Assembly: GCA_945905815.1 (NCBI GenBank)
Contig: CAMDQH010000018.1
Location: forward strand, 1-48,464
Source: Bacteriovorax stolpii
Lineage (GTDB): Bacteria; Bdellovibrionota; Bacteriovoracia; Bacteriovoracales; Bacteriovoracaceae
Length of the DNA stretch: 48,464 nucleotides
Direction of reading: 5' to 3'
Below are positions 23,384-26,064 of this stretch, one piece after another. The notes under the pieces were generated by a model, which saw only the letters and a program-made list of their open reading frames with translations, searched no databases and was not told where the DNA came from. A program made the position numbers and the translations under genes. Numbering within the stretch: position 1 is the stretch's first letter; each line of letters opens with the position of its first letter.

Positions 23384-23412
23384 AAAAAGGCTCCGCAAGG
23401 AGCTTTTTTTTT
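23384..23412 (+). terminator. Intrinsic terminator of rplM-rpsI
   Basis: GCTCC (23390-23394), loop GCAA and GGAGC (23399-23403), extended by A:T pairs with AAAAA at 23384-23388 and a T-run to 23412. Confidence 0.93.
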
Positions 23413-23427
23413 TGCTATATATGCTGG

Positions 23428-26064
23428 ATGAATAATCACGATGTTGATCACATTGAAATTCGCGGAGCTAGAGTTCACAATCTCAAGAACGTAGATCTCG
23501 ATATCCCTTTAAGAAAGCTCATTTGTTTTGCTGGACCATCTGGCTCAGGGAAAACCTCAATCGCATTTCACACTCTTTTAACAGAATCAAAGCGCCGTTT
23601 TATCAATTCATTCCCTAATTCCATGAAGTTTTTTACAGAGCGTCCAGCCGCTGTGGACGTAGATCGGATTTTTCCCGTACTTCCCGTTTTTGGATTGCCA
23701 CAAATAAATCCAGTCATGGGTTCGAGAACCGTTGTGGCCGATGTCATGAGGCTAACGGATAGTCTTCAAAATCTATATTTTTCGGCATCTAAGGAACTCT
23801 GCCCAGTTCATGAAGTAGAATTACATATAAGAGATGTAGGCGAGCAACTTAAAAGTCAGATAAAAGTAGTGGTGCCAAAGGGTGTTTATCACATTCTTCT
23901 AAGTCCAAATGAATTTATAAGAGTCTTCGGTGAAGGGTATATTCCTCCTCGATCCTATTCTCGAGAACGCAAATCAATTGAAGATTTTAACGAAAGTGAT
24001 GATTTCTGGGAAGTCATGAGGTTTAAGTTTGAAAATCTGGATTCTCTAGAGAAAAAATGGAAAGAGTTAAAACTATCCCAATTCCCGTTAAATTATTTCT
24101 TGATAGGCCCCGAATTTAAAAACCCGCAAAATCTTAGTTTTCATTTTCAAAAAGTGTGTCCCAAATGTGATTTTGAATCAAAACCAGTTCAAACCGTTTC
24201 GGCCTTTTCACCCTATAGTGCCTTGGGTGCATGTCCTAGCTGTAATGGTTATGGTGCTAATCTGATTTATGATGAGAAAAAAACAATTGATCGGGAACTC
24301 ACGATTCAAGAGGGTGGTTTAAAACTTTTGAATTACGCTCCATTTGAGGATTCTCACTTAGCATTACTTAAAGTTTTAAAGAAAAATAAAATCCCAACAG
24401 ATATTCCAATAAAAAAATTACCAAAAGATTTTTTTGAAATTGTGAGTCAAGGACAGGGTGATTATCCTGGCTATAAAGAACTCCAGAAGTATTTGGATTC
24501 AAGAAAATATAAACCTTCGGTACGCATTTATATACGTCACATGCAAAAGGAAGAACCTTGCTTGGTCTGCAATTCATCCAGGCTTAATAAAAATATTCAC
24601 CATTACCGCATCAGTTTAGGTGGACGGTTGTGGGGTCTTCAAGAAGTAATGGAGCTCACTGTTCAGGATGCGCTTTCATTATTTTCTCAAAAACGTATAA
24701 AAGAAGAAAATCATGAGGCGAGAATTTATCGGGATATCTGCGAGAAACTGAAACTTGCGGCAGAAATGGGTCTCAATCATCTCTCCATTCTTAGAAAGGC
24801 CAAATCACTTTCTGCAGGTGAATATCAACGATTACTTCTGATTAAATATCTTTCTTTTAAAGGAGTAGATAGTTTATTTGTTTTAGATGAACCGAGTTTA
24901 GGGTTAGGTGAAACGGAATTAAAAAAACTTTTGGAAGGTATAAGATTAATTATTGCTCAAGGAAATACCGTCATTCTAATTGATCACTCCGAATTTTTGC
25001 AAAAAAACTCGGATCACCTTTTTGTGATGGGGCCAGGCTCAGGTAAAAATGGCGGGGATATTACTTATCAAGGTGGACCAGAAAAGTATTTTACCACGAA
25101 AGAAAAAATTGTTTGGGAGACTAAAAAACATAAATTAAAAACTACTCAGTTTATTGAGGTCTCAGCTCCTGCAATTTACGGAAAAAATTATCCAGACTTC
25201 AAAGTACCACTAGAAGAAATGGTTTGGGTTACAGGTGACTCGGGGTCTGGGAAAAGCGCAAATCTAATAAAAATTATGGCCAATACCCTATATCAAAGGC
25301 TTCATTCGGAATGGCTAGAAGATGATCTTTTTAGCGTCAAATCGGTTAAGAGTCCGCAAAAGTTCGAAGATATTTTTGTTATCTCTTCAGACTTGAATCG
25401 GTTTACTTCGCGTTCATCTGTAGGAACCATTACTGAATTTGCTTCAGTTATTAGAAAACATTTTTTAAAACTTCCCGTCTCTAAAAGTATGAATCTTAAG
25501 GAAGGTCATTTTTCTTGTAATTCAGAATTAGGAATGTGTCCTCGTTGTGAAGGGAAAGGATCGATCGTAATTGAAATGCAATATTTAGAAGATATTATTC
25601 TTGAATGTGAAGATTGTAAGGGTCTAAAAATTAAACCTCTTTATGCTAATATCTCCGATGGTAAAATGACTGTAGCAGAGGCCTATAATCTTCCTTTGAA
25701 TCAAGTTTTGGAAAGAATTCAACTCACACCAAAATTTCGTCGTATTTGGGAATACTTAAAAATTTTAAATCTAGATTATCTCTCACTTGATCGCGGCCTT
25801 AATACTCTCTCGGGAGGCGAGAAACAACGTATCTATCTTCTTTCCAAACTCATGAAAACCATTCAGAACTCACTTCTTATCTTTGAGAATCTGTCTTTTG
25901 GCTTGTCCGAAAAAGAATTAAAGATGTTAGGGATATTTCTTCAGGACCTCCTGCAATTCAAAAATACGATCCTGATAATTGATTCGTCCAAGCATTTTGA
26001 GCACTTAGCAACATCGAAACTCGAATTTACCAGCGCAAAAATTCAACTCAAGAAGCTCGATTAA
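23428..26064 (+). CDS. UvrA paralogue with degenerate second ATPase site
   Basis: 878 residues (UvrA is about 940). It keeps the UvrA plan: Walker A I (GPSGSGKTS, 36-44), a CPVHEVEL segment where UvrB-binding domains start, a zinc site (C244, C247, C269, C272), signature LSAGEYQR with Walker B FVLDEPSLGLG and H-loop IDHSE. Then comes Walker A II (GDSGSGKSA, 603-611), a second zinc module (CPRCEGKG/CEDC) and signature LSGGEKQR (794-801). The second Walker B reads LLIFENLS where UvrA has LDEPT, and the second H-loop reads IDSS where UvrA has IEH. One composite site may therefore not hydrolyse ATP. It is probably not the main excision-repair UvrA; UvrA-type paralogues are known in resistance and damage tolerance. 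Its start is only 16 bp after the rpsI terminator. Confidence 0.9.
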   Translation: MNNHDVDHIEIRGARVHNLKNVDLDIPLRKLICFAGPSGSGKTSIAFHTLLTESKRRFINSFPNSMKFFTERPAAVDVDRIFPVLPVFGLPQINPVMGSRTVVADVMRLTDSLQNLYFSASKELCPVHEVELHIRDVGEQLKSQIKVVVPKGVYHILLSPNEFIRVFGEGYIPPRSYSRERKSIEDFNESDDFWEVMRFKFENLDSLEKKWKELKLSQFPLNYFLIGPEFKNPQNLSFHFQKVCPKCDFESKPVQTVSAFSPYSALGACPSCNGYGANLIYDEKKTIDRELTIQEGGLKLLNYAPFEDSHLALLKVLKKNKIPTDIPIKKLPKDFFEIVSQGQGDYPGYKELQKYLDSRKYKPSVRIYIRHMQKEEPCLVCNSSRLNKNIHHYRISLGGRLWGLQEVMELTVQDALSLFSQKRIKEENHEARIYRDICEKLKLAAEMGLNHLSILRKAKSLSAGEYQRLLLIKYLSFKGVDSLFVLDEPSLGLGETELKKLLEGIRLIIAQGNTVILIDHSEFLQKNSDHLFVMGPGSGKNGGDITYQGGPEKYFTTKEKIVWETKKHKLKTTQFIEVSAPAIYGKNYPDFKVPLEEMVWVTGDSGSGKSANLIKIMANTLYQRLHSEWLEDDLFSVKSVKSPQKFEDIFVISSDLNRFTSRSSVGTITEFASVIRKHFLKLPVSKSMNLKEGHFSCNSELGMCPRCEGKGSIVIEMQYLEDIILECEDCKGLKIKPLYANISDGKMTVAEAYNLPLNQVLERIQLTPKFRRIWEYLKILNLDYLSLDRGLNTLSGGEKQRIYLLSKLMKTIQNSLLIFENLSFGLSEKELKMLGIFLQDLLQFKNTILIIDSSKHFEHLATSKLEFTSAKIQLKKLD

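Follow-up and report, generated by a model that had tools for sequence, protein, structure and literature searches.

The window analysed here, 48,464 nucleotides of Bacteriovorax stolpii DNA (contig CAMDQH010000018.1 of assembly GCA_945905815.1, forward strand), encodes a conserved paralogue of UvrA. Of its two composite ATPase sites, the distal one appears to have been retired and the proximal one has been kept. Our preferred reading, of moderate confidence, is that this protein acts independently of UvrABC incision, most likely as a slow clamp or roadblock on DNA. The roles of the two ATPase sites of UvrA have so far been argued from point mutants, and a protein from nature in which, over most of a bacterial order, one site is kept and the other is gone would be an independent test of them. 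It would also show how a repair sensor can be turned into something else, here in relatives of bacteria, such as Bacteriovorax, that are known as predators of other bacteria.

The preliminary description of this DNA had taken the open reading frame for a UvrA paralogue, and this identification was borne out. In a profile search, the protein scores 390.2 bits against TIGR00630 (UvrA NER equivalog), below the curated cut-off of 729.8 bits. The structure predicted for it (pTM 0.73; pLDDT in Table 1) has as its best match UvrA 9gxl, with a Z score of 35.7 over 659 residues; the comparison with UvrA 2r6f gave a Z score of 34.2 and an rmsd of 5.6 over 812 residues, and a Foldseek search again returned UvrA as the best hit. 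In the model the ABC fold is complete and the overall UvrA fold is present together with zinc modules 2 and 3. The C-terminal DLGPEGG tail of UvrA is missing from the paralogue.

Table 1. Features of the UvrA paralogue locus. Positions are those of the window; counts are orthologue rows, unless otherwise stated.
Feature	Position	Strand	Evidence
Intrinsic terminator between rpsI and the paralogue	23384..23409	+	Scan; equivalent in 36/40 orthologous gaps
UvrA paralogue, 878 aa	23428..26064	+	Open reading frame; model pLDDT 85.7; best PDB matches are UvrA
Walker A-I, proximal, intact (GPSGSGKT)	23533..23556	+	Intact 42/42
UvrB-binding-domain equivalent, surface diverged, putative zinc module 1 ligands kept	23800..24168	+	17% of canonical conserved columns
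Insertion (DNA-binding) domain equivalent, residues 282-362	24271..24513	+	Pfam PF17755, 22.7 bits, just under the cut-off of 23.2
Signature I, distal, altered (LSAGE)	24808..24822	+	SGGE 0/42
Walker B-I, proximal, intact (FVLDE)	24877..24891	+	D487/E488 42/42
H-loop I His520, proximal, intact	24985..24987	+	42/42
Walker A-II, distal, still intact in the window (GDSGSGKS)	25234..25257	+	Intact 30/42, decayed 12/42
Q-loop II, Ser654 for Gln (E. coli Q690)	25387..25389	+	Gln 0/42 orthologues vs 22/22 canonical
Zinc module 3, four Cys intact (C704/C707/C727/C730)	25537..25617	+	42/42
Signature II, proximal, intact (LSGGE)	25807..25821	+	42/42
Walker B-II, distal, predicted dead (LIFENLSFGL)	25876..25905	+	Catalytic Glu 0/42, Asn 39/42
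H-loop II, distal, His lost (D852-S853)	25981..25986	+	His 0/42, including 3 gaps

Catalytic residues were compared by aligning the window protein to E. coli K-12 UvrA, which served as the numbering reference. Orthologue counts refer to 42 rows, namely the window protein and 41 of 68 loci after near copies and fragments had been dropped, which are 38-88% identical to the window protein. The canonical set contains 22 rows: the original 17, less L049 (long branch) and L054, L055 and L058 (moved to the second group described below), plus nine others. In UvrA the distal composite site is made of ATP-binding domain II and signature I, and the proximal one of ATP-binding domain I and signature II (PMC6486640). 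On the basis of this pairing, all the changed catalytic elements of the paralogue fall in the distal site (Table 1). As the preliminary description had read them, Walker B-II is LLIFENLS and H-loop II is IDSS without His; the alignment places E820 and N821 at E. coli D857 and E858, and S853 at H890, three of the 42 rows ending before the His position. In canonical rows the distal Glu and Gln are present in 22 of 22 and the His in 21 of 22 (one gap), and the two Gly of signature I in 21 and 22 of 22, respectively. Walker A-II and both signatures had also been said to remain: this holds for Walker A-II (GDSGSGKS) and signature II (LSGGE), but signature I is altered to LSAGE.

The residues that have taken the place of the canonical motif are conserved in turn (FEN[LI]SFGL): N821 is found in 39 and E820 in 35 of the 42 rows, and the Asn is present at position 821 in nine of the 12 rows with a decayed P-loop II. 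Four outgroup rows (L127-L130) keep the distal Glu and His; since three of them (L128-L130) are without the Gln, loss of the Gln alone is a weak marker. A sequencing error can be excluded, because close orthologues share the changes, as do orthologues of 38-88% identity from many assemblies. A shift of register in Walker B-II, which would let E820 serve as the catalytic base, was ruled out as well, the stretch aligning in register with canonical LDEPTTGL. Judged from its sequence, the distal composite ATPase site is catalytically retired.

The proximal site, on the contrary, is complete. The window protein keeps K42, Q92, D487-E488, H520 and the LSGGE of residues 794-798, and Walker A-I, Q-loop I, Walker B-I, H-loop I and signature II are kept in 42 of 42 orthologues, as compared to 0 of 42 for the distal Glu, His and Gln. 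These counts support, at the level of sequence, the earlier claim of one disabled ATPase site. One composite site is therefore without Glu, His and signature together and the other is complete, as in ABC proteins with one degenerate site. CFTR and TM287/288 are ABC transporters of this kind, in which one composite site has lost Glu, His and signature and the other is perfect. These are membrane transporters, whereas in the paralogue the same one-sided pattern is found on a UvrA body. In the open-licence literature searched, no description of a distal-dead UvrA was found.

Divergence is not confined to the ATPase site. Conservation was scored on columns at least 80% conserved in the 22 canonical UvrAs, over 11 parts of the protein; the insertion domain gave no such column. 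The UvrB-binding domain and the C-terminal half of ATP-binding domain II each keep 17% of the canonical conserved residues, the lowest value of the 11 parts. The N-terminal part of ATP-binding domain I, zinc module 2 and zinc module 3 keep 53-58%, and the other parts 25-48%. The UvrB-contact surface was scored by conserved columns only, the literature as far as it was accessible having given no residue list of UvrA-UvrB contacts. When modelled alone, the UvrB-binding domain, which is also present in the whole window model, gave a pLDDT of 90.7. Its four best structural matches are UvrA, although weak (Z scores of 4.0, 3.9, 3.4 and 3.4, as compared to 3.2 for an unrelated ribosomal protein), and some of the UvrA structures matched are complexes with UvrB or Mfd.

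The preliminary description had counted two zinc modules. The zinc Cys are present, but three modules are kept, one of them putative. The second module of the window protein has C269/C272/C378/C381 as ligands, and C125/H128/C244/C247 probably correspond to zinc module 1, since those ligands are absent in UvrA2. In orthologues, C125 and C244 are found in 42 of 42 rows, and H128 (replaced by Cys in the other three) and C247 in 39 of 42. Since the domain has not been deleted, as it has in UvrA2, and the putative zinc module 1 ligands are kept, the paralogue may bind UvrB, Mfd or another partner. The positions involved in DNA contact are in part changed. Four arginines of E. coli UvrA are linked to DNA binding, and their joint mutation is reported to abolish both nucleotide excision repair and transcription-coupled repair (PMC3025350). 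At the equivalent positions, orthologues have Arg for R712 in 41 of 42 rows, mostly Lys for R722 (35/42), Met or Leu for R724 (40/42) and His for R730 (41/42); the signature II stretch with these arginines keeps 32% of the canonical conserved residues. As the DNA contact positions are only partly kept, DNA binding by the paralogue is something that we infer.

The two sites of canonical UvrA have been described as functionally different. In the Geobacillus stearothermophilus protein, tight nucleotide binding and the burst of hydrolysis belong to the distal sites; in the K643A mutant, which has lost distal ATP binding, ATP is still hydrolysed at the proximal sites, and faster with native DNA (PMC6486640). 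According to a review (PMC7835731), E. coli UvrA with distal hydrolysis blocked binds DNA tightly and still loads UvrB, and ATP binding at the distal site is required both for finding lesions and for UvrB loading. The same review reports that the proximal hydrolysis mutant of E. coli UvrA is also a tight DNA binder, so that tight DNA binding is not special to loss of the distal site. The distal site is considered to matter for discriminating damaged from native DNA (PMC6486640, PMC7835731). Given that distal catalysis is lost everywhere, and the P-loop in some lineages, the paralogue should discriminate damage poorly and run on its proximal site. If the erosion of the UvrB-binding surface is considered as well, the distal loss suggests a clamp on DNA that acts without UvrB.

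In the mechanism that we propose, the paralogue would still dimerise and bind DNA through signature II, zinc module 3 and the insertion domain, and proximal ATP hydrolysis alone would drive DNA binding and release, with no DNA being handed to UvrB. The distal site, whose P-loop has decayed in 12 of 42 rows, would in most lineages at most hold nucleotide passively. The result would be a UvrB-independent DNA-binding ABC protein run by the proximal ATPase alone. The role other than standard excision repair that had been proposed from the window alone is made plausible by the composite-site pattern and by the 17% of conserved residues left in the UvrB-binding domain; protection from a specific lesion, suggested at the same time, is one possible use of such a protein.

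We also consider, tentatively and at slightly less than even chances, that the paralogue represents a third UvrA class, in which evolution has retired the distal ATPase and kept the UvrB-binding module, re-surfaced for a different partner. If true, this would be a natural one-motor UvrA dimer separating the DNA-clamp function from damage discrimination. Domain order, three zinc modules (one putative), proximal ATPase and fold are like those of canonical UvrA; the lost distal catalytic residues, the diverged UvrB-binding surface and the absent C-terminal tail set the paralogue apart. Like UvrA2 (class II UvrA), Ecm16 and DrrC, it is a second cellular UvrA that may be expected to be UvrB-independent (PMC10192343). 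UvrA2 and Ecm16 are described there as lacking the UvrB-binding domain, and UvrA2, Ecm16 and DrrC are without this domain and zinc module 1, whereas the paralogue keeps the domain and the putative ligands. Three genomes of the same genus (G015, G018 and G003; loci L050, L051 and L052) also have a third, UvrA2-like copy that lacks the UvrB-binding domain. In these copies the distal Glu, His and Gln are present, unlike in the paralogue, though signature I reads LSPGE.

In both trees the paralogue forms one clade (support 100/100) outside the clade of canonical UvrA and UvrA2 (100/100), and it is not grouped with UvrA2, of which three rows were included in one tree and two in the other. A recent duplication of the host's own UvrA is not supported by this position. 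The stem of the paralogue clade is long, so that its exact attachment in the trees is tentative. A second group of UvrA paralogues, of about 870-970 residues and from other families of the phylum, lies on the paralogue's side of the 100/100 branch (L054, L055, L058, L166, L168-L170, L171, L172-L174, L177 and L178). All 13 of its rows have the distal Glu, His and Gln, which no paralogue row has, and 5 of 13 have His at the position of E. coli R730, as compared to 41 of 42 paralogue orthologues. In all parts scored, the second group keeps 59-88% of the canonical conserved residues. In one genome (G043) a member stands side by side with canonical UvrA (L224), and in the six flanks examined none was seen near bamA, rplM, rpsI or lon.

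Because distal hydrolysis is dispensable for loading, the paralogue might instead be an accessory UvrA that loads UvrB in nucleotide excision repair or transcription-coupled repair. The survival of UvrB loading in the distal hydrolysis mutant (PMC7835731) is in line with this, and so is the predicted folded domain at the UvrB-binding position, whose best matches are UvrA, though at Z scores of 4.0-3.4 against 3.2 for an unrelated protein. However, this domain keeps so few of the canonical conserved residues, and the P-loop needed for distal ATP binding, itself reported as necessary for UvrB loading (PMC7835731), has decayed in so many orthologues that we regard such a loader as unlikely.

The presence of a second, canonical uvrA in the genome, a check advised in the preliminary description, was confirmed. 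This UvrA is encoded on contig 6 of the same 3.0-Mb genome (1342 bits; L001, 1501-4245), at a distance of about 3 kb from mfd, and the genome has one UvrB, one UvrC and one Mfd, each scoring above the profile cut-off. The canonical UvrAs of the family are mostly without the putative zinc module 1 ligands: Cys is found at E. coli C253 and C256 in 2 of 12 rows each, and at H123 there is Cys in 2 of 12 rows and His in none of 12.

In heteromeric ABC transporters, half-dead subunits act as regulatory partners. By analogy, the paralogue could form mixed dimers with canonical UvrA, tuning the lesion search or limiting incision. Both proteins are encoded in the window genome, the predicted ABC fold of the paralogue is complete, and the putative zinc module 1 ligands, kept in the paralogue and mostly lost in the family's canonical UvrA, would fit a division of labour. 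Nonetheless, the two proteins of this genome are only 28% identical and the paralogue is missing from several lineages, which makes such a partnership improbable.

The gene shows the marks of constraint. The ratio dN/dS was 0.019, 0.029 and 0.035 in the three of 12 paralogue pairs with computable dS, the other nine being saturated; two of the three are near saturation (dS 2.6 and 2.95), and the firmest value is 0.035 at a dS of 0.37. Between the same genomes, the dN of the paralogue is about twice that of canonical UvrA (0.19 vs. 0.10 and 0.21 vs. 0.10 in two comparisons). Selection on the paralogue is by these estimates purifying and, since about 92 of 116 genomes carry the gene and its locus is conserved, the distal loss is apparently not simple decay. 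If the gene were a duplicate decaying into a pseudogene, this would account for the decayed distal P-loops (12/42), the split or interrupted gene copies in two assemblies (L119 and L122) and the scattered absence of the gene, but the low dN/dS, the proximal site perfect in 42 of 42 rows and the conservation of the new motif FEN[LI]SFGL make such a reading very unlikely.

The paralogue had been placed behind the ribosomal protein operon. Its position there is nearly constant, as in 60 of 62 testable loci (exceptions L075 and L107) rpsI is found upstream at a distance of no more than 900 bases, but membership of the operon does not follow, since a terminator separates the two genes in 36 of 40 gaps. 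The terminator rule found 0-4 of 40 in ten dinucleotide shuffles of these gaps, and 2 of 37 in the gaps between bamA and rplM; in the scan that located the window's terminator, the terminator-like sites taken together numbered 5 against 5.1 in shuffles, no more than chance. The paralogue is thus probably outside the ribosomal operon transcript, and co-transcription with the ribosomal proteins is unlikely. The end of the terminator is 18 bases from the start codon in the window. In so short a gap, the promoter presumably lies in or before the terminator, unless expression occurs by read-through; no clear ribosome-binding site was found between the terminator and the start codon (window 23384-23427). 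Three genes usually follow downstream and precede lon; they encode a probably secreted protein that belongs to no Pfam family, a matrixin protease and a protein with an AMIN domain. In 59 of 61 loci (exceptions L107 and L121) one or more of the three start within 1.5 kb.

The gene was found, in some cases as fragments, in about 92 of the 116 genomes sampled in the order, which all belong to one family and are 80% or more complete, and was not found, on the basis of best E-values, in 24. For this reason it looks dispensable. Two of the 24 (G033 and G132) have no good UvrA match of any kind, so they are probably assembly gaps. Across the 191 genomes of a phylum sample, matches from outside the family stay at or below 547 bits, and whole copies inside the family score 885-1515 bits. 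The named paralogue loci are mostly from Bacteriovoracaceae and Halobacteriovoraceae, including Halobacteriovorax marinus and Bacteriovorax sp. BSW11_IV. Twelve of the 24 genomes without the paralogue were searched for rpsI (none in G130, a weak match in G033), and ten flanks were examined. In eight of them rpsI is directly followed by the next conserved gene, so that rplM-rpsI are retained and the locus is closed up; the other two have another arrangement (L206) and an unrelated insert (L213).

An action on RNA or ribosomes, suggested by the adjoining rplM-rpsI (rpsI in 60 of 62 loci) and a likeness to ABC-F proteins, is highly improbable in view of the terminator, of the rplM-rpsI pair that stays behind when the paralogue is absent (8 of 10 flanks), and of the UvrA structures that match its model far above ABC-F (best Z scores of 35.7 vs. 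21.1).

A tree built from five proteins has 40 rows (29 of the 68 present loci, 10 absent and one outgroup) and a weak backbone; on it the absences are scattered and require 5 parsimony changes. This distribution fits an old gene that has been lost several times.
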